Assembly: GCA_012064415.1 (NCBI GenBank)
Contig: SSNU01000327.1
Coordinates: forward strand, 148,935-212,934
Direction: 5' to 3'
Length of the DNA stretch: 64,000 nucleotides
Origin: Gyrodactylus bullatarudis
Lineage: Eukaryota > Platyhelminthes > Monogenea > Gyrodactylidea > Gyrodactylidae
Part shown: in pieces, positions 35,400 through 63,820 of the stretch
Position numbering within the stretch: position 1 is the first letter of the stretch
Layout: the number at the start of each line of letters is the position of its first letter
The notes under the pieces: generated by a model
Databases searched by the model: none
What the model was told of the DNA's origin: nothing
The model's input: the letters and a program-made list of their open reading frames with translations, nothing else
Position numbers and translations under genes: made by a program

Positions 35400-35666
35400 A
35401 TTTTGATATGGAACATCCATATTTTGAGTATGATGTGGAATTATACTCAAAATTTCTGGTTAAAGTCGATGATATAGCTTTTTCGAATAACTTGATGCTG
35501 TTGAAATATAATGATCAAATAAAGCATGAAATGGATTTATCTACAGCAAAAGTAACGATTAGGAGTAAAGCGATTATATTCATTGGAATTCCCCGTTTTA
35601 ATTTTGGATCAACATTTTATTTAAACGGAAGTGTAGATAGAATTGTTTTTTGGATGTCACAAATAG
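35400..35666 (+). CDS. Repeat-domain exon A1 (267 nt, phase 1-1)
   Basis: Acceptor TTATAG|A and donor ATAG|GTAACC; both borders are phase 1, giving 89 codons that join to D at the start. Open throughout. Protein clearly parallels exon B3: DVELYSKFLVKVDDIAF against DAALYSKTLVKFKDIEF, and DLSTAKVTI against DLSKAKVMV. The pattern is alternating strands closed by a short helix (VDRIVFWMSQIG). No transmembrane segment or known motif. It is the first of five plus-strand exons in block A. Product unknown. Confidence 0.7.
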
Positions 35667-37248
35667 GTAACCATCAGTTATATCTTCTGCTTAGTTCTAT
35701 CATCCCACAGTATAAAAATGGTAGGAGATTGGCTGCTAGTATTCATAACCATTGTTTCCTTCTTACGTATCTGTCAATTGCCCACTTAGACTTTTACGTT
35801 TTCTACCATTTTGCAATTGCAGGTGCAGCCAAAACTCTAGTGGTTCTTGATTCTCGCCTTCACTGATCTGACTGTTTGACCTACAAAGTCTTAACCGCGT
35901 TTACATTTGAGTAAGTATTTCACACATTTCTTCTCAAGACTTGGGACTGGATCTTTTTTCTCTTATGAAAGAGACAGAATGAGGGTGTTTGTGAAAACTG
36001 AGAACTATTAGATATTTCTTTCGACTAGATATTTCTTCTGTGATGAATCTGTAATACGTGTTCAGTGTTAGCACAAAAAGAAAATAGGCCAATCGTATAA
36101 ATCGAGGTTATTAAGGTTGATCTGCAATGAATAATTCATTGTGAGAACTTTTTAGATTTAGAGTTTAGGATATATTTTTTTGAAATGAAATGAAATTTAT
36201 TGAACAATTCATAAGTTTATATTTTATGGAATTTTATAGGGAAACTTTATTAAGCCAACAAAAAATAAAAATTTAATTCTTCAAGAGCTAGTTTTGGAAA
36301 TAATTCCATTTTAAAACTACTTTGGAGGATAATCCTTAATAATAAGGTTTAAGAAGTTCAATATTGATGTTCTTAAATATTTTTTCTTCCTCAGAAAATT
36401 ATTTCTGTGAGTCATATACGTCATACACTTTGTAGTTTTCATGTTTATTATGACAACTAAAAAATTAATATTTTGTTCATAATAAGTAGAGAAAGTCAAT
36501 AATTTCCCTTTATCTTTTTCCAGCTTAACTTCATAATTAATGCTTACTAGCATAATATTGATACACTGAAGAAAGTCAAGAATCTATATTTTTCTGATCA
36601 ACATAAAAAATTTTACGCTGATTCCAAATATGCCGAAAAATATATACGCTTCCCATCGAATAAAGAAGTTATACCAGTTTAATTGATTCAACCATTTCTA
36701 TAGCACATAAATGTACTCAAACTCAAATATCGACTCAAGGATTAAAGTTGAGAACTTGATCTTCACAAAATATTTTAACAGACAGTTTCTCCACTCATGT
36801 TCGAAATTTAGATCTGATCTGACATTTTTTTTAAATCAGGAGTGCTCTTTGAAAATTTAAAAGTTGAAACTTTTCATAATTTATAAGGGTTAATTTTATG
36901 CTTGATTTCATTCAATCTAGTTAAATAGTACTTAATCAGCTCCCAAGTGGTATATAATTTATTGTCTCAAGTGTTCAACAACAGTCAACTCGTACATCAG
37001 AAAATTTTGATCAGAAAAATACAGATTTAAAAAAATTTAAAAACTTTCTCCAGTGATATATAATAAAGTTAAAAATTATTATTGTCGGAAAAATTGTAAA
37101 ATACATCAAAATATTTTAGTTGGGTTAAGTAGAGTTAGAGAAAACAAGCGTGAATTATAGTGATAAGCGTCTCATTCAAATATCTTGTTTACACCTGGAG
37201 TATTTTATTTCTGAATATTTTTAAAACGCAAAATATTAATTTCACTAG
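35667..37248. other. Intron A1-A2; a segment shared with block B
   Basis: 36180-36240 (TGAAATGAAATTTATTGAACAATTCATAAG) resembles 57745-57775 upstream of exon B3. No exon with both borders found. A 78-codon minus frame (36317-36553) has no family signature. Confidence 0.45.
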
Positions 37249-37515
37249 ATTCATCGATGGATCATAAGTCTTATTTAAGATACGATTATAATAGAGTAGT
37301 TAATTTCGTGAATATTGATCACCTCGAAGTATGAGACAAACAGCTATTAGTTTTATGTAACAACAAATCTATTGATTCCTTCTATAAAATTGTCAGCAAA
37401 GGAGATATTATTGGAAAACGATTCAGTATTGATACTGAGAATAGTGAAAAGAAGCGAGTTATTGTAGAAGTTTTGGGATCCGTGGAAAATCTCGAACGGC
37501 TTCATAATGAGATCA
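37249..37515 (+). pseudogene. Repeat-domain exon A2 (267 nt, one stop)
   Basis: Acceptor CACTAG|A, donor ATCA|GTAAGC, phase 1-1, exactly 267 nt. Matches exon B4: LRYDYNRVVNFVNIDHLEV against LCYEYDNVFCLEKVDRFDL; the tail SVENLERLHNEIS ends in the same helix as the other exons. A TGA at about 37333 interrupts the frame where B4 has Ile-Arg. This suggests decay of block A, unless the base is a sequencing error. Confidence 0.65.
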
Positions 37516-37663
37516 GTAAGCTTAACCATTGTATAATATTTTCGTGTTGCATATAATTTTTATTAAAGGTGAAGGTCAAAACTCGAGTGAATATTTTTCA
37601 TTCTTTAAATAAATGAATATCAAATGTATAAACAATCGTAAATAAAGAATATTTCAATTTCAG

Positions 37664-37930
37664 AACTTACTATAACTGTGAACAATAATTTATGTTTATA
37701 TGTTTTATCCTTTCATTGGAAAAATACCTCAATGATATGTAAGACTTCAAAAGGCGACTATTCTTTTGATTTTTCTAATGCTCTTTGTTCGATAACAAAA
37801 CAAGAAAATTCTTTTTTTATAAATTGAATCATGTGAAAGTTAATGGGATAAAATCAACAGAATCGATTACAATTGTTGGCAAAAAACTAGAAATGAAGAA
37901 ACTGATAAAAAAAACTAGAAGAATTATTCG
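37664..37930 (+). pseudogene. Repeat-domain exon A3 (267 nt, two compensating frameshifts)
   Basis: Acceptor TTTCAG|A, donor TTCG|GTGAG, phase 1-1, 267 nt. Matches B5 (FHWKNTSMICKTSKGDYSFD against VQWKNFLMICKTEQGSHKFD). Frame is lost in a T7 run near 37810 and would be regained by a change in an A8 run near 37903, so total length is preserved. Both lesions lie in homopolymers. Ends in LIKKLEELF once the second frame is considered. Follows A2 after a 148-nt intron. Confidence 0.62.
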
Positions 37931-38251
37931 GTGAGATTAACTATAATTTTATCGATTAAAATGTTTTGTAACAGCTACCAGATCACTTATTTCTATATTC
38001 TATATTGTACTTACTACCCATTTTCTCAATACAGATTTATTTTCTAAAAAAATGTCATTATTATCAAGTAAGAAGATGCCAAAAATAACGACCTGTATTT
38101 CGGAAATACTCATTATACATGCCATATAAAAACAGGTTTAGAAGTGAGAAGTGATTATGTTATTGAATAAACTTTGGAATAGTATATCTGTTGTATACCT
38201 GTTTCCAGATCATATATAGTTGTGTTACAAAGATCAGTTTAAGATAACTAG

Positions 38252-38715
38252 AGCCTCAAAAAGTATTAAAATGCTTATTTAACCAGCTATTCCCTCTGTT
38301 ATGAAAACCATTTTAAACTAATAATTTTTCTGCTATGTCATCAGGGTTCAAAGTTATAAGGTCTTAAAATGTATTATTTTGAAGATAAGGTTTTAAAATA
38401 ATACTTTATAAAGGCATTTATTTCATCCATATCAATGAACTCGATTCTCATTTTTGAGGTAGAGAGATGATTTTCATTGTCTAACAATTTGCTAAGCTCA
38501 AAAATAGCCATGGAGATAGTAATTTGGATATTATCTCGATGTTTCAGATCAATTACAACATTAATCTGTTTTTCAAATTTTTATTCTGTTTACTTATAAG
38601 TAGTTCATGTAAGATATTTGCTGTAAATTAGGGATAAAGTATTAAAATAATACTTTTCAAAATTTTTAGATCTTAAAAAATTATTTTTAGGTAATATTTT
38701 TTGAGGCTATAATGA
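38252..38715 (-). repeat. Repeat unit with inverted ends, carrying a domain-like relic
   Basis: Begins AGCCTCAAAAAGTATTAAAATG and ends with an inverse of AGCCTCAAAAAATATTACC. The left 130 bp recur at 48787-48900. Between the ends a minus-strand frame resembles the array domain (see 38374-38580). Confidence 0.45.
38374..38580 (-). pseudogene. Minus-strand relic resembling the repeat domain
   Basis: Minus-strand frame of about 68 codons with its stop at 38374-38376. Alternating hydrophobic strands (NIQITISMAIFELSKLL) precede a helix-like end (MDEINAFIKYYFKTL), the same layout as the plus-strand array exons, especially B1. Opposite orientation inside a repeat suggests a copied terminal exon. 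Similarity is by pattern only. Confidence 0.35.
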
Positions 38716-39005
38716 TAAATAATTATAATTAGTAAAAATATGAAAATAATGGAAAACTGTTATTATTGTAATTATAACGGATAATTTTTCACAAAACTTT
38801 TAAATATCATTTCATCCACCTGGACGCAGGTCTTAAACGAGTGTACTATTCTAAAATATGGTTAGTAACATAATATCTTACAATATTACAATATCTCAAT
38901 ATTACACTAAATGTATAAAAATAAAGATTTAAATTTGTGGTATATTTTGACATCTTCTCATTTATTTACATTTTAAAAGTTTAATCTCAATATTTTTATT
39001 TTCAG

Positions 39006-39301
39006 ATTCTATTAAAAACGCGATCTTGTTTCGATATTTGACAGTGAATTTCATCGAAGAAGATATTGTTCAAACTGAAAACTTGCAGCTTTTATAAAGA
39101 ATGAAGGACACCAACAATTTACAAAATACACAGCAGATGAGATTATAACTAATCATATATGTTTGAAAGAATCAACTATAATGCTAGGTATAGATGAGAG
39201 TAATAGAAAATGTATTCAAATTAAGAATGCAATTCACTCAATGGACCATATAAGTATTAAAATCTATGTGGATAATATTGAGGTATCTTTTAAAAAGCTT
39301 T
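39006..39301 (+). pseudogene. Repeat-domain exon A4 (one frameshift, donor lost)
   Basis: Acceptor TTTCAG|A. Matches B6: DSIKNAILFRYLTVNFIEED against DSMKQSILFRYVTAKEIEGS, then after a frameshift near 39095 (in a T run) NHICLKESTIML against NNICLREASLKL. The expected donor reads T|GTTTTTAA instead of T|GTAAGT, so splicing is probably lost. It is 296 nt against 303 in B6. Confidence 0.62.
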
Positions 39302-39566
39302 GTTTTTAATTTTAAAATTGATTAGTAAAATCAGCTAGTTGTTGTTTGACTTAGCTCACTAGAGGAGTGTTGATTTTTCGTATTCGTACACTAAACATTT
39401 TTAAACGAATCATTATTTCAACAGTGCGAAAAACGAGGTTAATACTCTAATATTATTCATCAGTTTTTCAAACTAAATTCAATTCTTTAATTTAATTATT
39501 AATTCCGTTATTTATTTCATAAAACCTAACATATGTAATTATCAATTGAAGAATTAAAATTTTTAG

Positions 39567-39578
39567 TCGATTGTTATC
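39567..39578 (+). other. Candidate 12-nt microexon, block A copy
   Basis: TCGATTGTTATC bounded by TTTTAG| and |GTGAGT. The equivalent place in block B (62629-62640) has CTGATTGCTACC between TTCTAG| and |GTAAGT. Twelve bases keep the phase-1 array in frame. Alternatively it is the beginning of a longer terminal exon (D-C-Y-R…), open in both copies. Confidence 0.35.
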
Positions 39579-41170
39579 GTGAGTTTTTTTCAAACAAGAA
39601 AATAAAATTAACAATTTTGGACAAAATAGTTCTTCAGGGAATTCGGCATATATTTACTAGAACGTTGTTCACTTGCCACCTGACTATGTCGTCTTCTGGG
39701 TTGTAGAAAAAGAAAAAAATCTGTTCGAATTTTTCTTTAATAGTTATTACTTCAATCTGAAACAAAAATTTTACATTAATAGATCAAGTAATGTTCAGAG
39801 TAGAAAATTTAGTTTTCCGCAGCAAACCTAACGATATTTCACCGATATAACGTTTACATATGTTCTTGAAGTTGATAGGTTTTTTCTAAAGCTGATTCTT
39901 CACTAAACTTGCGTGTTTCATTAATTGAACCAACATAGTCAGCAAGCTAGTGAACAACTTTGTAGTAAAGATCACACAGAACTACCAAAAAATAGTTTTT
40001 TCTTCATAAGAAAAAATATATTAAAAATTTCATATTTTTATTATCAGGTGCAGGCAATACAATAGACTGTTTCAGTATCACATATAATGGTGTTGATACA
40101 ATATGGGACAAAGTCAACTGCTATATGAAATCTCGAAGAACTTTTAAATAAACCATTATCATATAACTAGAACATATCTTGCTGGGTCATTTCAAATTAG
40201 TTCAATTGATTTGAGTATTTCTATTGATCCATCTTGAGTAATTTGAGTATTGATGGGAATACAGTCTAGTGAATAGATCCAACCATATCCACCCCAACAC
40301 ACGATTTATCGATCGACATATATTGGAAATTTTAATCCAATCGAGAAAAAATAATAGAATAAAGTTTAGGGTTTGCGAAATTTTGAATTCTCAGAATTTT
40401 TGTTTTTTTTCCAATTATCTCAGAAATTATAAGTAAATTTTCAGATCTGAGAATAGATTTGGAATCATTTCAAAAGTTTACAACAGAATCAGATCACTTT
40501 TCCCTTTTACCTAAATTTTGAACTATTCACGACCACTAGTACTGTTTATACTATCAAGTCTATTCAGAGAAATAATTAGTTGGTCATAAATTGAATAGTA
40601 TAATAAAATGAATAATAATAAAGAAAAATTTGGGTGATATCATCAGTCAGTTGTGCAAACGTTGAGAGCATTTGAATAAATAAGAATGGATGCCAAGAAA
40701 ATTTGAGGAATGAGCTCTTTATTTCAGGCATTGGCTAAAGTATTTGATAATTTTGTTAGAGTTATTTTCTACATCTGAACACCTCATCCTTTTACTCGAT
40801 TCCTGAGGTTGGCTACTAATCTGAACTGAGGAGGTTGTTCTATTGTTCAAAAAGAATAACCAAACCAAATAAGACCAAGAGGTTTTACTATTTTCTACTG
40901 TTTGCATAGGCTAGAGTTTTCTTTCTTAACTGTTTTCACTTTTCCCATTTTGTCTATGGCTTTTGTTTTTACTATATATTTTGCATGTAAGAGGCTAGAG
41001 AGTATGCCTGAAATAAAGCGCTTATTCCTCTAATTTTCTCGGCATCCTTTCTAATTTTAATATTAAATTAAAGGTGTTTAGTATTTATAATTGAATATTT
41101 AAATAAAACATTGAATGTGTTACTTTTAGTAGTTAAACCATGGTTAGATTTTGAATAACATATATTTCAG
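39579..41170. other. Intronic; holds a long-TIR relic and a MITE
   Basis: 40330-40550 resembles the ends of the 16-kb long-TIR element (CTCAGAAATTATAAG; TTGAACTATTCACGACC). A separate small element occupies 40688-41047. No exon equivalent to B7 was found. Confidence 0.45.
40688..41047 (-). mobile_element. Small TIR element (MITE)
   Basis: About 45-bp inverted ends: GGATGCCAAGAAAATTTGAGG … and its inverse at 41003-41047, including TTTATTTCAGGCAT. Inside, a minus frame (40719-40907) ends SSQPQESSKRMRCSDVENNS then NKIIKYF, close to the plus frame at 60248-60472 (SSQPEETRKRNRNSD … NKITKYF). The two are related transposon C termini with a PIP-box-like end. Confidence 0.55.
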
Positions 41171-41428
41171 AAGCTAAATCATCAATTCCATATATGAACT
41201 ATTTTGATGGAGCTGTAAGAATAATGGAAAAAATAGAGAATATCAAAAAGAATGGCCCGATTTCCGGTTTTATTTCTCGTAAAATAGAAGTTGATAGATT
41301 TAATCATTTTCAGAATGTTGAGAGAGAATCTCAATTCTTGATGCTTCACGCGATAAGGAATGAAGAACATATTCAAGCTTTCATATATGGAGATGAAGAA
41401 AAATTAACAAGAATTTACGAAGATTTAG
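41171..41428 (+). CDS. Repeat-domain exon A5 (258 nt, phase 1-1)
   Basis: Acceptor TTTCAG|A, donor TTAG|GTGATT. Open. Matches B8: SIPYMNYFDGAVRIMEKIEN against TIPYVVYSFDDKKIVEKVDT, and FIYGDEEKLTRIYEDLG against FIYADQERLNRIYNELS. If the weak GTGATT donor is not used, the frame reads on to a stop at 41508 (DFSLRIFTPFI…), similar to the read-through of B7 (DFIIRLFCPL). It could therefore be a terminal exon. Confidence 0.68.
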
Positions 41429-41759
41429 GTGATTTCAGTTTAAGAATATTTACTCCGTTTATTAAAAATTATGAAATCCAAATTATAAATGCCGAAATTA
41501 TTTACTAATTTTTATATTTTCAAAGCATCTAATTCCCAGCAAAGTTCCCTCAATTAATTAGAAGATCGATAGCAGTAATTCCTTCAAGTGAGAATTCGTT
41601 ATAATGTCAAATGAAAGATTACATATCTCAAAAGAATGATAAATTATTATATATAGTATGAACGTAAAATATTTCGCGAGAGAAACTCTTTAATCTCTGT
41701 TTTTAGTTGAGCTATTGATAATTCCATGAATAAAAAAGGTTGATGTCAGTTATAAGAAT

Positions 41760-43723
41760 GTTTATTTCGTGGCATACTCATCAGCTTTAAAATGCCAGAT
41801 TTATACAGGTAAAAGCTCTGTAAAGGGTTAAAAATTTCAATAGTACATTAGAATGAAATTTCGACCAATAGGAATCGTTCAATAAAATTGAAGCTTTATT
41901 ATTTCTCTTCGATTCTATCAAAATTCCTCGTTGTATAGAATTTTATTAACTACTAAATTGACATTTTGTCACTAAATCAAGTGGGTTGAGTTAAAAATGA
42001 TGTCATGCATTGTTGATTTTAGGCACATTAGAGAGAAAAAATGTAATTATTAGATCAAAATTAAAATAGGTAGAAATATTGATTGATTTTTCTAGCTCAA
42101 CTAAAGTCTAATTTCATTCCCCGAAAAAAACAAACAGATGATTATCAGCACTAGGTACATACATGGTGCACCAAGAGGTGTGTTAAGAATATATGATGTA
42201 TATATTTTACTATTGACACGTCTGGATATGTCAATCTGAGATATCAATGCAATCCTCTAGTTATGTTAAAGTCACAAGGGGGTCACTGAGAGGGGCCACA
42301 GCCTTTTGGAATACGATGGGAGTGTCTGATAAACACGCCAAATGCTTTTGTATTTCAAACACTCATATTAATCAAACCTTAACGAGTAATAAATATCTTG
42401 TTTATTTAAGTTCGTTTATTTTTAAAATTATATACAGTTTAATTTAGAATTGGATTGTCTTTTGAAAAATTCAAATTCTTCACAATACTAAGAGAGCCAT
42501 CTAGTTTTCTCACTGTCAAATAGTTCTTCAGTAATTCTAAATCAGATGATGTTGCTCTTCTTATTTCATCATTTTTTCTATTTCTTTCGGTATCAAACCA
42601 GTTTGTTCCCAACATTTAACGATCATATCAGGACCAATCTCTTCCCATATATCTGAAGCTATATCGATGTATCAGCCAAGTTCATGAGATGGTGCATATC
42701 ATCAACAAAAACTCCTCTTTCAGACCTGATTCTCTCTAGGCGCTTGTTGTACATCGCCTTAAATTTCCTGAAGTTGAATTTTCTGGAAGATAAATAATCT
42801 GAAGAAGATTAAATAATTTTGAATAATCATATTCTAATGTTTACTTTTATGTTCCTAAGAGATCTCTGTTGTTCTTCTTTGCAATGTTTAAAATGAGCAC
42901 TACATAAAAAGTATTATCTTCCGGTCGACGATTCTTCTTTTTTTCCCAAGAGTTCTGTTCCATGCCTGTAAATATTTTTTGAAAGCATCTTTTGTCATCC
43001 ATGATGATTTTTCATGAGTGAACTTGATCCTTTTTAGAGTATTCTGGCGGTCTCTGAAGCATATTGGATTTCTGTTTTTTCCTATCACCCAAAGTTTTTT
43101 CTTTTGACCAGTGGCACTCACAGCAACAACGAGGGTAAATCTCACTTTGGATTTTTTTCTTCCAAACAGTTTGGAGCCTTTTGTTGCGATGACTTTAGAA
43201 TAGTAATTGAAAATATTCCAACCGGCTTCATCTATGTTTTGGCTGATACCCTTCAGTTAACTCAGGAAGCTGTTGAAGAAAGGCTGCTATTTTCTCGGCT
43301 GGCGCATCTAGTTTATCACCACAGGACTATAAAAGAAGGTTTTGATAAATTTTATATAGCTTCACTTAAAAATCAACTTACAGCTCTAACGACTAATTTT
43401 TGACGATTCTTAAAGTTTTTATAGAATGTTTTACTACCTATGAAAGTTGTAAAACCCATCTGTGTTGATACGTCTTTAACTATATTTTCTAAGTCTCCAT
43501 CACTAATATTCGATGAAAGAATTTCATCCACCCGTTCTTTGATAGAAATAGATATTTCGCTCTCTCCAGATGGCAACCGTAAATGTCTTTCCTGTTGAGC
43601 ATTGATTATGGATGTTGATTTTTTCAAAGACTTATATACAGTCTTCACTGAACAATTGAAAATAGAAGCCAGGTGGGATGGGTCAATTTTATCATATATA
43701 TAAGAATAGGTAATTTTATTCAC
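41760..43723 (-). pseudogene. Pogo/Tigger-family transposase relic X2
   Basis: Relative of X1. N terminus 43373-43723 with helix-turn-helix (LASIFNCSVKTVYKSLKK) and RLPSGESEISISIKERVDEI. An intron of about 63 nt (43315-43378) sits at the same position as in the 46-kb copy. Then the DDE region (42900-43300: LVVAVSATGQKKKLWVIGK, SSWMTKDAFKKYL, RKIILFM) and a second intron of 46 nt (42799-42844). The exon after it is deleted across the third Asp. 41790-41890 is the left terminal repeat. Defective. Confidence 0.7.
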
Positions 43724-43739
43724 TAAATGTAGTAGAAGT

Positions 43740-43895
43740 TTAAATTAGATCTTTTAACTATTTATAGAAGTTTTGACCGAAAACCTTTAAGATCTAGTTT
43801 ATTAACAAAAAAACATTTTGAGGCATTGAAAGAACTAAAATCTAATGAGAACATATTCCTTACTAAACCTGATAAGGGTCAATGGATAGTTATAC
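43740..43895 (+). pseudogene. Penelope-like RT N-terminal scrap
   Basis: Plus frame with FEALKELKSNENIFLTKPDK then G-x-x-VI. The ALKELK…TKPDKG-x-x-VI block is the conserved start of PLE-type reverse transcriptases. No palm motifs follow. Confidence 0.5.
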
Positions 43896-43954
43896 AGTGA
43901 GTTGCATAGATAACGCCTCGAGATAACTCTACCCAAAAAATAATCCTTTATTTA

Positions 43955-44410
43955 TACCTCTCTGCACCTATTTTATTGACCAATAATATTCGAGTATCCT
44001 ATCAACCAATGAGATTGGAGCATGGTTTTTCCATATCCACTTTTTCTGTTTCTACTCTCTTTCCCCAGTATGATTACGTTTTAGAAAATATGATTCTATA
44101 TTTTACATAGTTGAAAAGAGAATTTTCTTAGCTTTTACAAGAAATAAAAATTAAATCTCTAGCATCACGTATTACTGAATTAAAATAACTCTGTTATTAT
44201 TAACTTCCAGGTCAAGATATTAGCACCATTCGATAGACAATGTTATTTTAACTGGCTTGGGAAATTTTCATTAAGCCAGCATTAAAGAGCTCAAAGAAAA
44301 TTAGTTTATAAGTTTTGATCTGAAATAGCTTTTTAAAAATCTAATTCAAAATCACATCACTCATGAATGTAGAATCGACAATGAAAACCATGCTCCACCC
44401 CTCCCCCTCA
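43955..44410 (+). repeat. Tigger-type terminal repeat, copy 1
   Basis: About 450 bp, from TTTATTTATACCTCTCTGCAC to CATGCTCCACCCCTCC. Diverged direct copy at 47630-48075 (CCTCTCTGCCCC … CTTGCTCCACCTCCCCC). Confidence 0.6.
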
Positions 44411-45660
44411 ATCTGCTATCATATGTGAAAAAGGGAGAAAATTCTTTCGTCATTAGTCATGACCTTTTTGTTATTTTAAAGTCATACCTCCCTTTTACCA
44501 TGAATCTGTGTTTGTGAATGTATTCATATTTATGTTCATTTCAATATCGACCAATGGAATTGTTTCTAAGTTTGTAAAATCGATTCATTCTCAATAAAAT
44601 TTTATAACTGAAATGACTAAACTGACGCTTTCACAAAAGCAAGAGATCTTAAATCTTTACGAAACTCATTCCATTGTTCATCTAGCAAAGCTGTTCAAAG
44701 TTTCAAAGCCTACTATACGAAAGGTTCTCGACAGTAAAGAAATCAAGCGGCCATTAAATGACGAGAATTCAAGATCTATTATTCGTTTATGTCTCCAGAA
44801 ACGTGCTGAAGATGGAATCACGACAACTCCTGATGAACTTGGAGATTTAATTAAAGATATCGCCAACAATAATAATATTGAAAAAATTCCCAAGAGCACA
44901 ATGTCTTTCATGTGTCAGGATAGTTTTCTAGATGAAAGAAATGTAAATTTTCATTTTCTTAACCTTTCAGGTACAAGCTAAAAAAGTTTCCTTGAATAGG
45001 ACAATAAACCTCCATTACAAAATCGATAATTATATAGAATCTAGTTCTCAGTGCTATCTTCTGTATGTCTCGTCAATACATTACAAGAATAAATTCATTT
45101 ACTGCCTACAAATTATCAATTTCGATTCAGAAAAGAGACAGTTTCTCTGCATCAAGCAAAAATATTTACTTACAAGTTTCAATGCTATCAAAATCGAGCA
45201 GAAACAATCGATTTTAATGTATTTGTTACGGTTTATCTCTCATTTCAATAAATAAGTGAAGGTTCCATCAGCACTATTTATTCAGAAAAACTCGGAATTT
45301 CTAATTGATATCAAAAAAATATTACTTCAACTCCATAATTTGGATATTTATACTTACTCGGTTGATAAGCCGACTAAAATTTCATACGTTTTCCGAAAAG
45401 CGACAAAATTTGAAGCTTGCATCAAGTCAAGACCTGGACTTCCACATAAACCTGCAGATCAATTTTATTGAGAATGAATTGATTTTACAAACTTAGAAAC
45501 AATTCCATTGGTCGATATTGAAATGAATATAAATATGAATACATTCACAAACACAGATTCATGGAAAAAGGGAGATATGACTTTAAAATAACAAAAAGGT
45601 CATGACTAATGACGAAAGAATTTTCTCCCTTTTTCATATATGATAGCAGATTGAGGGGGC
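44410..45660 (+). mobile_element. TIR element with truncated transposase N terminus
   Basis: Inverted ends of about 200 bp (44412-44610 and 45455-45660) starting CCCCCTCAATCTGCTATCATAT. Inside, 44613-44981 begins MTKLTLSQKQEILNLYETHS with a helix-turn-helix (LAKLFKVSKPTIRKVL) and PDELGDLIKDI, followed by two shorter plus frames (44992-45255, 45256-45471) without recognised motifs. No DDE core, so non-autonomous. It truncates the minus-strand transposase that starts at 47244. Confidence 0.7.
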
Positions 45661-45663
45661 AAT

Positions 45664-49859: not shown

Positions 49860-52498
49860 ATGAACATTACCAATATATTAATTGTTTCTCCTTATGTAAA
49901 TAATAACCCCCAATTAACAACACATGTACAGAACAAGGCCTTGACAACTCATTTACCTCGTAATTACAAATTTCATACAAATCCAATGACGACGAATCAA
50001 TCAAGACTCCAATTCTCCTTTTTTCTCCAAAACATTCGCTCATCATTCTCTTCTTTTCATCAGTTACGGATACATCTAATTAATACTAGATATGACTTCT
50101 ATTGTTTTACCGAAACCTGGCTCTCAAATAAAAATATACCTAACAGCCTACACAGTGAAGACTTGGTGTTATTCGATCTGACAGAACTGATGATCCCCAC
50201 GGAGGTGTCCTGATTTACTATTATAAAAATACAATACAAATATCATCAACAAACAAATTCAGCTTTCATGGAAACGAATTCCTCATCGTTAAAGCTAACA
50301 AAATAGGAAGTTCCAAATCGATAAATATTGCTCTTTTATACAGAAAACCTAATACAAACTCCCAAACTGATATAGAACTTGCTAACATTATAGATGAAAA
50401 CTTAACCCTTGATGATGACTTAATTTTTCTGGGAGACATTAACATGCCTAATGAAAACTGGAACAACCCAAACTCTGATATTGGTATACTACTACAATCT
50501 TTCAATCTAAAACAAATAGTATCGACACCAACACGAGGCCAAAATATTCTTGACTGTATATTTCTAAATGCCACAACTCTGTCATTCTATGTTGAAACTC
50601 AAAATATATATCACAACAAAGATCACTTAGGAATTTTCTGCATTATTGATACACACCTCACAGAAAATTCAATGCCTTCGAATAATGAATATTCTTTCTA
50701 TGATTTTACTGACTACAACGTCTTCAAAACAATAACAATTATGCCCGAGAATTACATCAACGCAAACAACATCATTGATTACTATAATAGAATGTATAAT
50801 ATTGCTACTATTAAAAAGCGTAGAAGAAACATTGACCATCTCGAATTAAAACTAAATAATCGTCTTGAAAACAAACTCAAATACTGCTGTTCAGTTACTG
50901 ATGGAAGAAGATTACTAATCAACACACAAAATCAAATATCATCTCTAACATCAATGACTTATGCTCGTATTGAGAAGAACCTAAAGAATGAAATTAAACA
51001 AAGACCCAAAATTGGTTACCAACAATTGAACAAATACTTTAAATTCTCCAATAAAAACGTTCATAGTATCAAAGAAAACCCTGACACCATCCAAGAAAAG
51101 TTCATCAATGTCTTCAATGCATCACCCCAGTTCAACCCTAACAATCTTAGACACAACCCAAGTTGCGGAGATGAGATTAATTACAATTTTATGTCATATA
51201 CTCAATTCTTCAATATGCTTTCAAAACTTAAATTCAAGAATCGACGAGACATCTACAATATTAGCATAAATATATTGCTCAATGGTCACTGCACATTCCT
51301 AAATAACATATATAATCTATTTAAAAAATCCTTTGATGAAAATTTTATTCCAAAAGATTTCCTTGCAACAAAAGTTATTCCTCTTCCTAAAAAAGACTCA
51401 AATGAATTCAGACCTATCTCGTTACAGTCAACACTCATGAGAATCATTGATTCCTTCCTGTTTATTCAAATAAGGAAAACTGTAAACATTAACATAATTG
51501 ACCCCAATCAACATGGCTTCTGTAGGGGTAAATCATGTGAAACTAATCTTTATCAATTTCTAAGCTACATCTCATGCTTAAAAAGCAAAAAGAAAAAAAT
51601 AGTTGTTGTATACATTGACCTTAGTAAGGCCTTTGATAAAGTCTACTTCCCAACTATACTTGAAGCCTGTCATAAACAAGGTATCTGCTGTAAACTTTTA
51701 AACTATCTCGAAAACTATCTCATCAATAGGAATCAATTTGTCGAATGCAATGGCCAAAGATCATATAGTCAAATAATCAAATCAGGAGTCCCTCAAGGAT
51801 CCAGAGTTGGACCTCTACTTTTCAATATTGTATTTGCTGATATTCAACCTTCCTCATTCAAAATTTTTAAATATGCTGACGACTTTAAAATAGTCTTTGA
51901 TTTTGATGGTACCTATAACACAAATATTATAAATTCAGAAATATCAACTATCATCAACAAATTAATGAGCTTTGGATTGTCCCCTAACATAGAAAAATCA
52001 TTCTACTCGACTCCAAATGAATCAAGGATCACTGATTTAAATATCTACATCAACCAAAATAAAATTCACCCTAAAACTACAATTAAGGACCTTGGGATTA
52101 CTTATTCATGGAAACTTGATTTTGTTGATCACTATAAAGAAATTATTAAAAAATTCATTGGCCGGCTCATCCACATCCACAAATGCATCAAAGTCGACAG
52201 CATGAAACTACTCTTATTCAAAGTTTATGCTAGACCAGTAATTGAATACTCTTCTGCAATCTGGAACCCTGAATGTGACAAATGGTCTAAAAAAATACAA
52301 ACTGCATGCAACAGATTTACGCGCTTTTTGTCATCAACTGAAATGAAATCCACGAAGAACTCCTTATGGCTAAGAAGAGAACTCAAAACAATTACCCTAA
52401 TCAAACTCTCACCCCTGGCTAACTCCAATCGTCAAGGCCTACGCTCCAACGTTCCTGAATATGGCAATCTAAAAAGCTATCAATTTTATCAAATTTAA
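49860..52498 (+). pseudogene. LINE ORF2: AP endonuclease and reverse transcriptase
   Basis: Endonuclease (49860-50700): FFLQNIRS (Asn), FTETWLS (Glu), one frameshift near 50180, then HGGVLIYYYKN, FLGDINMPNENW (Asp) and KDHLGIF (His). Reverse transcriptase in a 684-codon frame (50444-52498): FRPISLQSTLMRI, VVYIDLSKAFDKV (first Asp), GVPQGSRVGPLLFNI and KYADDFKIVF (catalytic DD). A connector and C-terminal region follow, ending at the stop 52498. Only the frameshift at 50180 separates it from an intact protein. Confidence 0.85.
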
Positions 52499-52615: not shown

Positions 52616-52745
52616 AGTTCAAATTTGTTGAAAATATGAATATGTCTAGGTTTCTATAACCAGAATGATTTTCTAAGTCATATCTCTCAAAATAACAGAG
52701 TTCACATTTTTTCAGGGCTTCAGACTCTACCCTGGTAATATCTAT
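52616..52745 (+). repeat. Dispersed repeat R1, copy 3, right part
   Basis: CCAAGTTCAAATTTG … ACCAGAATGATTTTC matches 1135-1190. Its end carries (minus strand) GGGTAGAGTCTGAAG, a 15-base match to the hammerhead-like motif at 11849. Confidence 0.6.
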
Positions 52746-53265: not shown

Positions 53266-53269
53266 GAAA

Positions 53270-53770: not shown

Positions 53771-53978
53771 TACAGTTGAAATTCTTGTAAAGTGAGAGGA
53801 GATTAAATTAAAAGGGGATAGATCCTCGTATATATAGGGCTAATTTGGGTTGATATTATTGTTCGATTGCATGGACCAATGAGAATCGAGGGTAGGGAGA
53901 ATATCATATTATTTTTCACCTTGATTCAATCTAATTTTTATCAACCTGTGATTTATTTCTGGTGCTTAGAAGCATATT

Positions 53979-54633: not shown

Positions 54634-55664
54634 GATATTTTTTTCATTTATTAATAATAACTTGAAATTAATATTTTAGAATAATTTCTGAATCTGATAG
54701 TAAGTAAAATCATCCGCTTTAGATATCACCGAAAAGCTGGTCTTAAAATATTCAGCTATATTCATTCATATTGATAAGCATAGTTTCTTTCATAAGATAG
54801 ATTAGTTAAACCTGGATTTATCAATTTCTCGAATACAATTTACAATTATGATTTGATACCAGAGAGAATGAGATATTTAACGATGAATAATAAGAATTTT
54901 TAAAAATCTCAAATACTAATAAAGAATTTTATTTGAATATTTTTTTCCACTGAATACCCAGAAACTCCTCTTACAATCATAAATTAGAATCTTGAATTAA
55001 AACTAAATTCAACTAGAGGTAGCTAAAATCATCTAATGAAGCCATAAAGGGTCATGAATTCGTAATAGAGTATGCTCTCAGGTATTCATGAATATTTTCT
55101 GACCTAAGTTTAAAACCGAAAAAAAATTCTTATTTATCTATTCTTCTAAGACCTTGGCATGTACGCAGCTTCGATTTAGACCTGATTGAGGAACTTTAGA
55201 AAATTCTTAGTGATAATAAAGTTTTGATAATCAAAATGAATAGATAGATAGACCTAATTTTTCATCAGATTCAATTTAGTGTACAAACAATCTTTAGAAA
55301 AAGGATTCAGCTTTTTGTCAAAAGAAGTTAAATTAAATCTGATGAAAAATTAGGTCTATTTCTCTATTCTTTCTGATTATCAATACTTTATTATTCTATT
55401 CTCTAATCTGATTGGGAAAAAACAGATAGGGATGAGATCATGAAAGTATGTAAATAATATCTTGTTTTTGATAAGCTTTTCGTACCACTGAAGAACGCAT
55501 GTGAAGACAATCACTTTCGATCATTCTTCCCTGAATCCGAGTAGATTTTGTCAAACAATAAATTTAATTTGAGGTTTCGAACCTCATAAATATTATTTTA
55601 ATAATCTTTTGATAAGTTCAACAAAATTTTCTTTTAAAAAATGACATAACATTTAAATTTTCAG
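54634..55664. other. No gene; one small inverted repeat
   Basis: A 60-bp imperfect inverted repeat (55215-55277 and 55330-55392; core ATAGACCTAATTTTTCATCAG) with a 52-bp spacer looks like a tiny MITE. Otherwise AT-rich sequence leading to exon B1. Confidence 0.5.
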
Positions 55665-55919
55665 ACTTCGAATCTATAATTGATGGCCAGAGGATAAAAA
55701 AGTTCGAAGATATTTTATTTTTGAATGGTTTCATGTATCTGAAAGGCGAACAAAGCTTCGATTTTAATATTTCTTGTTCATCGATAAAAATATCGGGAAA
55801 TATCATATCTTTTAAAAATACACTATTAAAAGATGCTAGAGAAAAACTATGTGACTTACAGTTTACAGGACACAAACAGTTCATTGATAAATTTATAGAA
55901 GCTTACGACGTAATAGTGC
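55665..55919 (+). CDS. Repeat-domain exon B1 (255 nt, phase 1-1)
   Basis: Acceptor TTTCAG|A and donor C|GTGAGT, both phase 1. Open. Reads as short strands (FNISCSSIKI, FKNTLLK) with a closing helix (HKQFIDKFIEAYDVIV). Without splicing the frame stops at 55957, so it could also be a terminal exon. No counterpart seen in block A on the plus strand. Domain unrecognised. Confidence 0.6.
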
Positions 55920-56226
55920 GTGAGTCACTTATAAAAATAAGCCTTGAGAAAAAATAGTGCAGGTTTTTTTATGAGGCCTTTCTCATTCTAATTAGTAATT
56001 AAAACTTAAAAAAGGAGGTATTTATTTTCGAATATTTGTAGTGATTAGTTATCAGCGATACGTAGTTTCACTGAACTTGCTAGAAAATATAATTTTTCTA
56101 GGAAGATGAGCGTATATACACTTGGCTAGTGAGAAATAATGATGAGAAATGCGACGATTCCTCAAAATATCGAATTCAGACCTAACCAGAAAAATTTTAT
56201 CAATAATATCAATAACATATTTTTAG

Positions 56227-56514
56227 ATCTGGATGCAGAAAATTCTTTAATAAAATTTGAAATTGATAATGATATTATTTATCATCGTTTCTCGGAATTA
56301 CATTGTGAAAGATCCGTTTTGAGATTTGAAATTACCTTTAGAGGCAGAAGACTTTTCTTAGGCTTATTTGATATGAGTTACGCAAAGGCCTTTATCACAG
56401 GAGAAGAAGAAAATTATATTTTTTTCGTCGATAATGTTTCCACGAAAAGTAAAATAACCACGATTCATTTATATGCAAAAGCATCTAATATTAAAACTAT
56501 ATTCGAGAAATTAG
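56227..56514 (+). CDS. Repeat-domain exon B2 (288 nt, phase 1-1)
   Basis: Acceptor TTTTAG|A, donor TTAG|GTAAGA. Open. Central RFEITFRGRRLFLGLFDMS and end KASNIKTIFEKLG. The orphan exon at 27338-27628 is its closest relative. The frame is open further upstream to 56139, but a phase-1 acceptor at 56226 and matching exon length favour this start. Confidence 0.68.
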
Positions 56515-57936
56515 GTAAGAATTCATGATAACTAATTGCTTTTTGTGAGAATTATTTTAGCATTACTCAATTATTTTTCGTGTTATTCGTAATTGAATTA
56601 GATATAGATTCAACTGACTAATTCATGACTATTCATTGGAAGTATACCATAATTTTAAAATGAGGAAGAATAAAAACCATGATTCATAAATCATGACTAA
56701 TTTAATCTTTCTATCTATTCCTTTTTTCTATAATTAATTTATTTTTGTGTACCCTCAACTTTCTAGAAAATGTATGAGCGAGAAACCCGACAAAACTCAG
56801 GTGAAAGCTCTCCAAAGTGACACGACTTGTGTGAACACTCAAATGTAACTTTCACTATAATTTGATCCAATAGAATTGCCAATCAAAACGAAACAATATT
56901 CTTCAGTATTAATCTTACGTAGAATAATGTGTTACAAGAATTTTCCATATTACAATTTAATTCTGAAACTTGTTTCAGATTTCAAATTAATAAGTTTAAT
57001 AATCCCGAAAAGTCTTTAATTTCTCTTAATCCATCATACACAATCACAGGATGCGTCATCCCTTGTTAAATGCTTGTATAATATGTGTGTGTGAACGGAT
57101 GTCTAACGAATCCCTCATCATTTCCAATACTTTTCTAGTACCTTTTTGTTTGTCAAACTTATTTTGGGATCAGATGTTCATTGACCAAATTCGAATCTAA
57201 GTTACTATCTAGGCAAGAAGAAATAGCTAGTCTCTTTTGGTCATGTTCGAAAAATTCTTGATCATTTTAGACACTCTGTGATATTCAAAGCGGCTGAAGC
57301 TTAACTTAAACTAATGTTGATAAAAACGAGTGAGTTTATTATAATTTTAACTTAATTATACTTTTTAGAAATGTAATGCAATTATATACGAAAAATTCCG
57401 TTCGTTACAACAATAATATTGCCGAACTTCATTTTTAATAAATAAAACTTTTTCTTCAGAATCCACCAGTTATATCCAATACTAATAGATATTATCGATA
57501 TTATTATGAATTTTCTTCTAATGATATGTTTAATCACTTAATTCTATTAATTCGAAGAAAACTGTTTCAGTAAGTTTTTCTGTTTTGATTGACAATAAAT
57601 CTACTTCTCACTTCTATATTCATTTATTGGTTCTAATATAAATTAGAACGATATCTATCATAATTATGATATTATAAATTATAATTTATTTATTCTGAAT
57701 CTGGGGTTTTTTATTTAATTTTTTTATGTTAATTTTTTAATTGAAATGAAATTTTATTGAACAGTTCATAAGTTCAGCTTAATTATGATCCGTGAAACTA
57801 TAAATTAGTAAATATCAAAGATAATTCTGCATCGATAGAAGCATAAATGTATATGAGGAAGTGAAAGTGTATTGTATTTATTTAATGAATCTATTATGCT
57901 TTAATTTCATCTCTCATTAATGTAATTTCTCTTTAG
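56515..57936. other. Intron B2-B3
   Basis: AT-rich. 57745-57775 resembles 36180-36210 in block A, supporting block duplication. No exon found. Confidence 0.45.
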
Positions 57937-58203
57937 AGTATGATTTGAGAATACCATTTTTTAAACTCGATGCAGCCCTTTATTCGAAAACACTTGTAAA
58001 ATTCAAAGATATTGAATTCCTTAATGACAAATTATTAATGATGGATGATGAAAAAATTATAAATGAAATTGACTTATCTAAAGCTAAAGTGATGGTTAGA
58101 AAGGAACTAATATCAATGACTGGCATAAGAGATTTTGATTTGGATGTTGTTTTTAATATTCGTGTTAAAGCGGAAAAGTTAATTCTATGGACGCCTAGAA
58201 TAG
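57937..58203 (+). CDS. Repeat-domain exon B3 (267 nt, phase 1-1)
   Basis: Acceptor CTTTAG|A, donor ATAG|GTAAGT. Open, 89 codons. Counterpart of A1 (both have LYSK-x-LVK and DLS-x-AKV). Strand-rich: KLLMMDDEKIINEIDLSKAK, then DLDVVFNIRVKAEKLILW. The strand pattern followed by a closing segment is reminiscent of PH-like folds, but I see no diagnostic motif. Confidence 0.7.
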
Positions 58204-58906
58204 GTAAGTTTTCATCAAAACAACTGGGAATTCACATTTCACATTACATCATGATAAGAAAAAATTTTATTTTAGAGGAATATTTTAGTAAGTACATAGA
58301 ATAAACGTTGAAAAACAACAATAGATAATAGTTACAATTCATAAACTAAATTCAATAATTAATAAATACTTATTAGATACGCCTAAAATATAGATGTTAT
58401 AATAAGTTAGACATACGTGAATCTCTTCCTGATTAATACTATTGTTATTTATTCAAAAATGAATTTTATAACCATTAACTTCATATAGCTTTCAGTTTCA
58501 CGATTTTCAGAGTTAAATCTACAGCTAGTTCTGACAATGAATTTTTTCATCCGAAAATTCCTAGATTCTGATGGATATTTCGAATTCATTAATGATTGAT
58601 CTAAAAGTAGTTTTATATATATTATTTTTTTAAACTTAGGTCACTATTAATATTCTCAGACATTGGTCATTCACTCAATGGTACGATGATGACTCTTCAC
58701 GATTTTTTATTTTTTCGTTCTTCTATCTTTTTTCAAAAGTTAGGACTCTAGTAATAGTTTGGAATCGATTTCTCTTTTGTTTCCGATTTTATTTTTAATG
58801 GGCTTCGAATAGGATTTTGTATCAAATTTTGATACTGGATTAATATATATTCATTGTGAAAAATCTCGAAAAAAAGTCAGAAATATTTTTCTTTAAATTT
58901 ACACTA

Positions 58907-59581
58907 TACCTTTTGCATGTCATTTTGAGAGAAAGAGTAGAACATACTACTAGATAGAGGTATACAAAATGAAGTAAAATTGTAGTGTAATTTTATAGTA
59001 AAGTATGTACAACAGTCAATTTTGATGTATAATTAATAGTATGACGCATTAATTAGCACTACAATAAATAAAATCAAATCAAAACGAAAGTTGATAATTC
59101 AATTTAATAACAAAATTTAACTTGTTCATTCAAAATTAACAACATCGAAAAATCGTAGCTGGGGTTACTTGTTTAGTCCCGATTTCTAAATTCATTAAGA
59201 CTCTTAAGCTGAATTGGAGTCATTTTTAAATCATCCTCCTCTTAGTAAAGGGAAATCTCTTTTTGTTTGGACCCAACACAAGCTGTAGAATAAGTAACAT
59301 AAGACATACTGGCATATTCTCTCCAGTTCTGACCATTTCTATACAAGTCCTAAATTTTTTTTTCTCAAATGTTGCCATGTTTCACTAACGTAGTAGACAA
59401 AAGTACCTATTAAGTACCTATACAAACTAAACCAATCGGAGTGAGTTTAACGTTTGACCTTAATTTGACTTGAATATTTAAGTTGAGAATAAATAAACCT
59501 CCCTTTTCACGACTTCAAAAATGAAAATAATTATCTAGCAGTTTGTTTTACTCTTGTTCTCAAAATGACATGCAAAAGGTA
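58907..59581 (+). mobile_element. Tc1/mariner-type non-autonomous element, copy 2
   Basis: Ends TACCTTTTGCATGTCATTTTGAGAG and its inverse, with TA target duplication (58905-58906, 59582-59583). Same family and length as 13629-14297, reversed. Lies in the B3-B4 intron. No coding capacity. Confidence 0.8.
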
Positions 59582-59629
59582 TAATGGTTTTAATTTTTTG
59601 ACATGATTTTTTTAATGACAATTTTATAG

Positions 59630-59896
59630 AGTTATCTATTGTAAGAATGCCATATCTATGTTATGAATATGACAACGTTTTTTGTCTGGAAAAAGTGGAT
59701 CGATTCGATCTGATTCGTAACCAGTTATCAGTAATCAGCGATAACAAAGTTGTTGATACCTTTAATTGTTTTATTAAAAAAGAGAATAATATGGGAGAAT
59801 GGTTTTCGTTCAAAGTTGAAGGTTCAGATAAAACAGAAATCAATGTTGATGTTTTTGGAACAGCAACTTCAATAGGAAAGTTATACGATGAAATTG
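59630..59896 (+). CDS. Repeat-domain exon B4 (267 nt, phase 1-1)
   Basis: Acceptor TTATAG|A, donor ATTG|GTAAGT. Open. Counterpart of A2 (CYEYDNVFCLEKVDRFDLIR; closing helix ATSIGKLYDEIG). Starts 49 bp after the mariner element, so the insertion spared the acceptor. Confidence 0.7.
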
Positions 59897-60134
59897 GTAA
59901 GTAGAAATTAAATATCAAAAAAGCAGACAATATTTTATATTAGATGAAAAAAGTTGATAATATACATTAATGATAAAAAATGTATCTATTCAAGAGAAAG
60001 AGAAAAAAACAAGTAAGTGATGAATTTTACCTTTTGTTGTTGTGAATTTTCAATTTCAAGAGAATGTATGATCTGAAGAATTATCTATCTTAATATTTTG
60101 CCTGGTACGACTATTAATTAATGACAGTTATTGG

Positions 60135-60472
60135 AGATATGTAGGCGACACGTTACTTTTCCTCGATAAAGAGAAAGATGAAAATGGCTTATTGAACAAG
60201 TTCAACGACGCCCACTCAAAACATGAGTTTCACAAAATCTCAACACCTTGAAAACTGCAGAAGCTTTCTTTATTAAAAGAGAAAACCCAATATTGTGCAA
60301 GCAAAAGAAACTATTCAAGACATTGGGTCTAAATTGGCACAATACGAGAAATAAAAATAGAGCAATTGTTGAAACTAGCAGTCAACCAGAGGAAACAAGA
60401 AAGAGAAACCGAAACTCGGACACAATAATAATAATAATACAAAACAACAAAATTACAAAGTATTTTTTCTAA
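60135..60472 (+). pseudogene. Penelope-like RT scrap and transposon C terminus
   Basis: 60135-60250 reads RYVGDTLLFLDKEKDENGLL, a degenerate YVDD block (Gly for Asp) of a PLE-type RT. 60248-60472 encodes SSQPEETRKRNRNSD and ends NKITKYFF, similar to the minus frame at 40719. Intronic relic. Confidence 0.45.
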
Positions 60473-60937
60473 TGATCAATAATTCCAAAAGATATCATGA
60501 AAATCTACGTTTATGTTTATTAACCTTTTCTTTCAAACTATTTATAATTATGTTAAATTGAAACTTTATCGCCTCAATCATATGCGATATCATACATATG
60601 TTACCGTTAATCTTGTTACTCTTGATTTGTCTTCACTAATTTCTGTATATAAAAATTTTGACAGAACATTGCCGACACCCCTAAGATGATGTGAAAATAA
60701 ATCTGGAAATTAAAAAAACTAATAAGACCCCCTCATCATCTTAAAGATTCATGAATATAAATTTAACTATAATTATAATTATATATTCATGAATGCCATA
60801 CAGTCACAGATTGTCTATGTGATGAAACTAATAAAAATCAAAAACGAATTCTATCAAAAGTAATTTTATCAATATGAAACCCTCATTGATAATATTGAAA
60901 ATACATTTTCATTTATTCTCATTTTTAAAATAATTAG

Positions 60938-61204
60938 AGTTAAGCATAACAATCAACAAAATAAAATGTATTCATGTGATAAATGTGCAGTGGAAAAATT
61001 TTTTAATGATATGTAAGACAGAGCAGGGCAGTCATAAATTCGATTTATCTTTTACTTCATGTTCAATAACGCCCTGTTACAATAATAATTTGGTCCAATT
61101 AAGATATGTAAAACAAACGGAAAATCAACAAGATTTCTTTCTTTCAATTATTGGTCAAGAAGCTGAAATGAATAGACTAATTGCTCATCTCAAGAACCTT
61201 TTTT
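60938..61204 (+). CDS. Repeat-domain exon B5 (267 nt, phase 1-1)
   Basis: Acceptor AATTAG|A, donor T|GTAAGA. Open from the acceptor, well before the first ATG-like codon. Counterpart of A3 (LSITINKIKCIHVINVQWKN; closing helix EMNRLIAHLKNLF). No lesions, unlike A3. Confidence 0.7.
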
Positions 61205-61634
61205 GTAAGAGAAAAATTTTGTAACAAAAAATATAACCTTCTGTTTATATAACCTTAGAGCAATAAAATTATTGCCTCAAAAATATTGAATCGCGCTCTC
61301 TATGATTAATTATGCCGAAATTAATTGCATTTCATGTTTTATTATGATCATACTAGTGATCTGTACTAAGTTAAAATAGTTAACTTATAGTTTTTATTAG
61401 TTTAACTATTTGCATAGAACATAAGTTAATTCATTTCCAAATATGGCACTCCAGTGATTTTTATTATTATCCTCTTTATATTTAATAAAGATAATTTTTT
61501 TTTATTTTAAATGAATCGGAAATACCAATCAGAGAGCAATTTTAGTAAGAATATAAAAAGTTATTCTGAAACAGAAAAATGCAATTACAATGCGATTAAA
61601 ATTTAGTACATATTAGAATAAATATATATTTTAG

Positions 61635-61937
61635 ACTCCATGAAACAATCGATCCTGTTTCGTTATGTTACTGCAAAGGAAATTGAAGGTAGTGTAATTG
61701 AAACAGAGCATTTCGAGATTGTCCTCTTAATTAAAGTAGAAGAAAACCAAACTTTTGGATCTTATACATTCAATGATACGATGATAAATAATATTTGCTT
61801 GAGGGAGGCATCATTGAAATTGCGAAAAGATGATAAGAAAAATTTATGCATAGATATTACGAATGCCTTACAAGGAATGAATTATATCAATATCAGAATC
61901 TTTGCCCCAGATATTAAGAGGTTTTTTAAGAATTTAT
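61635..61937 (+). CDS. Repeat-domain exon B6 (303 nt, phase 1-1)
   Basis: Acceptor TTTTAG|A, donor TTAT|GTAAGT. Open, 101 codons. Counterpart of A4 (SILFRYVTAKEIEGS; closing DIKRFFKNL). It is the longest exon of the array. Confidence 0.7.
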
Positions 61938-62241
61938 GTAAGTGGAGAATTAGCTCCGATTAGTTGATTCAATGAATTATTTTTTGAATCGCATTTTGTT
62001 ATATACTTTTTGGAACCTCTGTAAAAGAACTTTTTCTACATTCAATCGCTGTTTTCAAAAAAATTACATTTCAGAAGGAATTGGTGAAAATATTATTATT
62101 TATTACTACCGTTTTATAGTTCATCGTATCTGTTCGAACTGTTAATTATAATTAAGATCTAAAAGAAAATTTCCACCAATAATAGTATTCTGTCTAATTC
62201 ATGCTTTCATTTATCAATAAAATTAAACCAATGAGAAAAAT

Positions 62242-62570
62242 ATGTATTTTTTAAAGGATTTTTCAATTTTTTCTCACTTGACGCGCGTTTTAAAAAGCTT
62301 TGCAAGAGTGCTAAATTTGCGTATACTCCATCAATTAACGCGAAATGTTACGCTCTTTTTAATGGGAATAAAATCAATTTCCAATTCTTATGTTTTGATA
62401 CCAATAATATCAATTAATTTCATTGAGATACTTAAAATTAGCAATTTTTGTTTTTTTGGCCATAGCGACCAAAATATTAAAGCTAGCGAAATTCTGAAAG
62501 CAGATCTGAAATCAGCACAAAATTTTATTCCAAAAAAGTTAAACCTGATCAAGATTTTATAAAATTTTTT
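62242..62570. repeat. Relic related to the long-TIR element
   Basis: GCAGATCTGAAATCAGCACA then AAATTTTATTCC near 62500 resembles the TIR of 16085-17135. The 106-codon plus frame here is non-coding in appearance (repeat-derived). Confidence 0.4.
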
Positions 62571-62628
62571 TCCAAATCACTACCCGTATAATTTAAATTC
62601 ATATAAACAATAATTATTCATTTTCTAG

Positions 62629-62640
62629 CTGATTGCTACC
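62629..62640 (+). other. Candidate 12-nt microexon, block B copy
   Basis: CTGATTGCTACC between TTCTAG| and |GTAAGT; see 39567-39578. Would encode four residues (…DCY…) in phase 1-1. Confidence 0.35.
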
Positions 62641-62716
62641 GTAAGTTGAATAGAAAAAATTTAATGCTTCATAAGCTTGCAAAAAATACAAGGGGATTTA
62701 TTTTTCCAATTTTAAG

Positions 62717-62971
62717 GTTGTGATGACAAAATCGATTATTTCAAAATATCAAACAAAGATTCGTACGTTTTCTTGGACAAAATTGGCATGTACAAATGTG
62801 AAAACTCAAAACTACTCTTTGAAAATAGCGAAACCACTAAAATTTTTATTGGTTATGCCAGAATTTTGCAAGGTGAAAAAATTACAATTATGAATGTGGA
62901 CTCTGACGAGCTTGTCGTAGAAATAATAAGCGATAAAAATACATTGTTGGAAGATATAATGAAAATAATAA
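62717..62971 (+). CDS. Repeat-domain exon B7 (255 nt, or terminal to 63005)
   Basis: Acceptor TTTAAG|G is weak; donor A|GTGATT is phase 1. Open. Reads DDKIDYFKISNKDSYVFLDK … and closes with LLEDIMKIIS. If the donor is not used the frame ends at 63005 after DFIIRLFCPL, resembling the read-through of A5. No block A counterpart found. Confidence 0.55.
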
Positions 62972-63559
62972 GTGATTTCATTATAAGATTATTTTGCCCA
63001 TTATAATAAATCACTTCATTTAAGAATTAATATTAAATTGTTAATTTTTTTCTTCTGAAGTGAAAAGTTTCAGTAAGTATGAATTAGAAAATAACTATTT
63101 CCAAGTTTAAAGAATTACTGGAGCATTTTTCCAGCTGAAAATTAATTTTTTTATTATCTGCATACATTGTGCAACACAAAATTTGGTAATTTTCTATAAA
63201 TCACAATTCCGGAGTAACTTTTCACAATAATTCCAATGGTGTATTTTATCCTCAGAATGCAAGGAGAAAAGTTATAGCACTTCAAAGTCTTAATAATGTT
63301 TATTTCATGACTTTACGCTAAAATATGAGAAAGTTAAGTGCTAAAATGTAACTTTTTCATGTGATTTTATGATATATGGAGTATATACCATGTATTGCGG
63401 GGTTGATGGTATAAATGTTAAAATAGGATGTTAACTAATTATGCAAAGTGGACCCTACATAACCTTCAGTATGGCAATGCTTAAAACTATTTTTTGAAAT
63501 ACATAACCATGAATTTTTCCGAATATATCAATAAAAATTTATATAAATTTTCTTTACAG

Positions 63560-63820
63560 AAGACAATTTAACAATACCTTATGTTGTTTACTCTTTTGAT
63601 GATAAAAAGATTGTAGAAAAGGTGGATACTTTTAAAAAACGCGGACAGGTTTTCAAATTATTATCTCATAACAAAGAGATAGATTCTTTTGAAAATTTCA
63701 TACAAATCCTAAAAGAAATGGATGATTGTCTGACATTTAATGCCAAGAGGAGAACAACTGAGGTACAAGGCTTTATATATGCTGATCAAGAAAGATTAAA
63801 TAGAATTTATAATGAACTAA
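63560..63820 (+). CDS. Repeat-domain exon B8 (261 nt, phase 1-1)
   Basis: Acceptor TTACAG|A, donor CTAA|GTAAGT. Open. Counterpart of A5 (IPYVVYSF; VQGFIYADQERLNRIYNELS). The strong donor means the gene continues past the end of the window. Confidence 0.7.

Follow-up and report, generated by a model that had tools for sequence, protein, structure and literature searches.

A 64,000-nucleotide (nt) stretch of the Gyrodactylus bullatarudis genome (contig SSNU01000327.1, positions 148,935 to 212,934; here termed the window) carries an array of exons that each encode one small domain, grouped here as blocks A, B and C. Positions are those of the window and are carried on past both of its ends (Table 1). 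From B1 to C5, 12 domain exons are open, and upstream of them lies block A. An initial annotation of the sequence had recognized an array of at least 13 exons, A1–A5 and B1–B8; all are present, and the array is extended by C1, C2, C4 and C5 and by two further block A remnants upstream. Its description of the 13 as symmetric phase-1 exons was confirmed for the ten that are open (B1–B8, A1 and A5): each follows an AG, starts with codon position 2 and ends with codon position 1, directly before a GT. A2 contains an in-frame stop, and A3 and A4 change frame inside; A4, at 296 nt, is also no multiple of three. Counting on the sequence confirmed the six 267-nt exons that had been listed (A1, A2, A3, B3, B4 and B5).

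The 12 open exons fall into four types whose order repeats with a period of four along the array: in a period test, like exons stood four apart and neighbours differed. The four-exon cassette c–d–e–b is present in two clear copies and likely in a third. Likeness within a type can still be seen in sequence, as between B4 and B8 (E = 7e-10). When the 12 exons were joined into a 1,073-residue protein and compared with the whole genome, at least 18 matches were found, every one of them at this locus, comprising the 12 block B and C exons and six rows in block A. Another exon candidate, C3, was dropped from the array and excluded from both the joined protein and the period tests: a reverse-transcriptase frame of 605 residues runs opposite to it, and C3 occurs a second time nearby.

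Exon borders were examined in 14 exons (the 12 of blocks B and C, with A1 and A5). The chosen donor GT was unbeaten by any GT within 60 nt in all but C5, and the chosen acceptor AG was unbeaten in ten, the exceptions being B4, C2, A1 and A5; for B8 and A5 an alternative start 3 nt upstream, at CAG, is possible. Codon bias gives weak backing to the stated frames, which outscored the other two forward frames in 13 exons out of 15 (B5 and A1 excepted) and came first among all six in nine, with one tie. Neither scans around B1 and C5 for a first or last coding exon nor a translated comparison of the stretches preceding blocks A and B yielded anything convincing; two short translated matches downstream of A5 and B8 resemble a shared repeat.

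Block A is a decayed copy of block B. Its seven remnants are collinear with B1, B2, B3, B4, B5, B6 and B8, and no counterpart of B7 was found. Downstream of the B2-like remnant there is a short, weak match to B2 residues 78–95 in another frame. Amino-acid identity between A and B copies is 36–39% in three pairs, and for three A–B pairs the NG86 method gave a nonsynonymous divergence (dN) of ~0.5 and a synonymous divergence (dS) of 1.6–2.6, the latter close to saturation. These values suggest that both copies were constrained through most of the time since duplication and that block A decayed later. At the DNA level the two blocks share four short matches; as none covers an exon pair, we take the introns to have diverged fully.

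Table 1 Domain exons, remnants and neighbouring features, in window positions
Feature	Position	Strand	Description
B1	55665..55919	+	255 nt, phase 1-1; c-type by order, closer to e-type by sequence
B2	56227..56514	+	d-type; 288 nt, phase 1-1
B3	57937..58203	+	267 nt; placed in e-type by its order, sequence alone being insufficient; PH-like in AlphaFold2 model
B4	59630..59896	+	b-type; 267 nt
B5	60938..61204	+	c-type; 267 nt
B6	61635..61937	+	d-type; 303 nt
B7	62717..62971	+	e-type; 255 nt
B8	63563..63820	+	b-type; 258 nt (261 if start 63560); AlphaFold2 model PH-like
C1	69593-69874		past window end, beyond ~1 kb of N; phase and length class as in B
C2	70027-70314		past window end; phase and length class as in B
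C4	78375-78623		past window end; phase and length class as in B
C5	83759-84001		past window end; phase and length class as in B
B1-like remnant	about 24547..24618	+	3′ part lost beside unrelated sequence; matches B1 residues 1-24; weakest remnant (corrected E ~0.05)
B2-like remnant	27395..27627	+	d-type; frame broken; matches B2 residues 6-59 (28.9 bits)
A1	35400..35666	+	open, 267 nt; copy of B3 (36% identity over 88 residues)
A2	37249..37515	+	b-type; 267 nt, in-frame stop; best match B4
A3	37664..37930	+	c-type; 267 nt, internal frame shift; best match B5
A4	39006..39301	+	d-type; 296 nt, frame-shifted; best match B6
A5	41174..41428	+	b-type; open, start maybe 41171; best match B8
C3 (rejected)	72087-72362		second copy at 76971-77321
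Phospholipase A2 cluster	-2098..-1856, 2276-2509, 5950-6240, 13306-13572, 17951-18202	-	bee-venom type, tandem, five exons
ISXO2/IS1595-like transposase	-597..83	-	open frame, 227 residues (PF12762, E 4e-13)
Interspersed repeat	35673-35960		starts six bases into intron downstream of A1
Reverse transcriptase	50159-52498		between blocks A and B; open frame, 779 residues; non-long-terminal-repeat-like by eye
Run of N	about 64,000-65,050		~1 kb in contig, from about window end; inside B8–C1 intron
Reverse transcriptase	70627-72441	-	C2–C4 intron; open frame, 605 residues (RVT_1); Penelope-like by eye
26S proteasome RPN2 gene	~85.9-89.3 kb	-	right neighbour of array
Dihydrolipoamide acyltransferase gene	from 89.4 kb		beyond RPN2

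Two domains, B3 and B8, were modelled with AlphaFold2, and each model consists of eight strands and a C-terminal helix (predicted local distance difference test score 94.7 for B8). The PH-like superfold, which includes PH, PTB, EVH1, RanBD and FERM-F3 domains, comprises about seven strands in two antiparallel sheets that stand nearly at right angles, with a C-terminal helix as the closing element. Among the matches listed for the two models (VIA), nearly all were PH-superfold chains, over 72–84 residues; the structural neighbours listed included RanBP2 domains, Homer, Akt and talin F3, and no one family was prominent. B3 and B8 are thus predicted members of the PH-like superfold. The initial annotation had guessed at PH-like strands plus a helix, with which the models and structure matches agree at the level of prediction; the structure prediction and Foldseek search that it proposed for B3–B6 was run on B3, with B8 added. 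In both models the exon border coincides with the end of the C-terminal helix.

No known family had been recognized initially, and sequence searches likewise named none. Over 14 domains the best Pfam result was COG3_N for B8 (E = 0.0013, below its cut-off); apart from PH_S11IP, other families had E of 0.043 or more. PH_S11IP, for B3, was the sole PH-named hit and scored 12.5 bits where the cut-off is 27, these two hits being the ones for which cut-offs were shown. RanBDs are recognized by a sequence motif and by binding of Ran-GTP; the RanBD profile was absent from the Pfam hits of the domains, and the likeness to RanBD is one of structural neighbours. Sequences in the PDB gave no match at E up to 10, nor did a protein database searched with the joined protein (7,995 candidates scored). 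As a control, an SLC22-like transporter from the same contig matched seven proteins, all with major facilitator superfamily or sugar-transporter domains, and both of those named by organism were bacterial. Animal proteins thus appear to be scarce in this database, and the empty search says little about other flatworms. A viral structure library searched with the B8 model gave nothing at E ≤ 0.001, its best match being an uncharacterized Klosneuvirus protein (E = 0.0066).

The array probably finishes near C5, as the next genes are those for RPN2 and then dihydrolipoamide acyltransferase. The left flank of the locus holds minus-strand exons of a phospholipase A2 cluster, of which the exon at 5950 was assigned by PF05826 (E = 1e-25) and the remaining four by likeness; a transposase frame lies at the left end of the window, and reverse-transcriptase frames stand between blocks A and B and in the C2–C4 intron. 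Within the window no tRNA genes were found, and no Rfam family reached its gathering score. The contig is 583,304 bases long in an assembly of 77.3 Mb and 471 contigs, and the GC content of the window is ~31%; for the genomes of gyrodactylid monogeneans, a passage in PMC12677651 gives 67–91 Mb and 31–39% GC. A separate mitochondrial contig of 14,926 bases carries cox1, in which tryptophan sites are TGA, serine sites AGA or AGG and isoleucine sites ATA, with AAA lying outside the conserved lysines, which are AAG. Judged at the conserved sites of cox1, this codon use is that of the echinoderm/flatworm code.

We propose, with a probability of roughly 0.6, that the 12 open exons B1–C5 belong to one gene and encode one predicted protein of twelve compact PH-like domains, in which the c–d–e–b cassette is repeated two to likely three times. 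The exons, their phase, the period of four, the single locus and the collinear decayed copy are observed, and the PH-like fold is modelled for B3 and B8. Since the exon border ends the C-terminal helix in both models, the domains would follow one another with almost no linkers. With every exon in phase 1 at both ends, unequal crossing-over inside introns would preserve the reading frame, and for this reason we infer that the gene may have grown by duplication of a four-exon cassette. Later, eight or more exons would have been copied together in tandem, producing a block A that has decayed since then.

The annotation had left open whether duplication built a modular protein or a Dscam-like bank of mutually exclusive exons, and the modular repeat protein is favoured. 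The open exons are phase-1 symmetric and similar in length, so that swaps would keep the frame, as one domain per transcript would demand; a bank would nevertheless put like beside like, whereas here like exons stand four apart, which makes this alternative very improbable. Still harder to credit is that the exons code for part of a transposon protein, which the annotation had named as a possible refutation. The region is rich in transposons, and C3 did prove to lie in repeat sequence, but the genome matches of the joined protein all fall at one locus and no dispersed copies were seen, compared with 55 matches (the query itself included) in a DNA search of the genome with positions 35400–36400, which stem from the true repeat adjoining A1.

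Block A, which shares strand and phase with the others, raises two further alternatives, each of which we consider improbable. Blocks A, B and C might form one larger gene of about 20 domains in which splicing skips the broken A exons; A1 and A5 have kept open frames and credible borders, and a scan between A5 and B1 gave no first exon. Yet A is collinear with B1–B6 and B8, as a tandem gene copy would be, and breakage or truncation affects five of the seven remnants. That clear breakage in an adjoining block, together with transposons inside the introns, could instead signal a whole locus in decay, with B and C silent too and intact-looking because they are younger than A. Against this, all 12 domain exons of B and C are open, 11 of them without a better donor within 60 nt (the exception again being C5), and they have stayed open although similarity between the types has nearly vanished, which suggests long constraint. 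Somewhat less improbable, though still unlikely, is that the domains are divergent members of a known animal PH-superfold family, beyond the reach of sequence profiles, with the repeats gained in this lineage. The fold is common, the structural neighbours listed include the proteins named above, and A and B copies have themselves already diverged to the identities given above; Pfam, however, gave nothing better than the sub-threshold COG3_N hit, the PDB gave no sequence match, and the structural neighbours do not point to any single family.

Judged from its composition, the predicted protein is probably a cytosolic, multivalent protein-binding scaffold. Net charges are low (at most +1 in 11 of the 12 block B and C domains, at most 0 in nine and from −5 to +1 in ten, with C2 at −14 and B5 at +3), and no conserved cysteine pattern was seen in the domain alignment; for these reasons a cytosolic protein-binding role is favoured over lipid binding. 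Phosphoinositide-binding PH domains have a basic lipid-binding pocket at their first strands. Individual domains might bind phosphoinositides, although we favour this less; the property computed for the question was net charge. Each domain type would have its own partner, and the cassette repeats would supply every site more than once.

The PH-like domain is one of the adaptor folds that eukaryotes use most, usually alone or in pairs, and domains of the PH superfold are not generally known as builders of arrays. RanBP2/Nup358 has four Ran-binding domains of PH-like fold, but those belong to a single kind and are separated by other domains, and the RanBD profile was not among the Pfam hits here, whereas at least 12 domains of four kinds follow directly on one another here with a four-domain period. 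The histone chaperones Rtt106, SSRP1/Pob3 and Spt16 carry PH-like domains in tandem and resemble the array in this packing (Rtt106, 3to1, was among the Foldseek matches listed, E = 0.17); they have two such domains per module rather than at least 12, and showed no sequence match. Titin-like immunoglobulin arrays share the organization of symmetric one-domain exons and duplicated multi-domain cassettes and differ in fold. Dscam banks are likewise arrays of similar symmetric exons, but their adjacent exons are close paralogues used singly, in contrast to the differing neighbours and alike fourth exons seen here. In searches of open-licence papers, the titles and abstract openings mentioned no continuous PH-like array of such length with a four-type period. 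The fold is thus known, and the twelve-domain, four-period array is apparently new, pending comparison with flatworm proteomes.

More tentatively, and at somewhat less than even odds, the array may represent a novel type of repeat protein in animals, in which PH-like beads, at least 12 in number and arranged with a period of four, join without linkers into one continuous rod. Such a protein would be confined to a single lineage of flatworms, its gene assembled from cassettes of phase-1 exons and changing so rapidly that just fold and order persist. If so, the PH-like fold would be able to build an extended repeat protein, and the locus would be a clean example of cassette duplication via symmetric exons. 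The gene could be specific to its lineage, within a small-genome flatworm and with no counterpart to lend it a function, and would then offer a test case for the origin of orphan modular genes.
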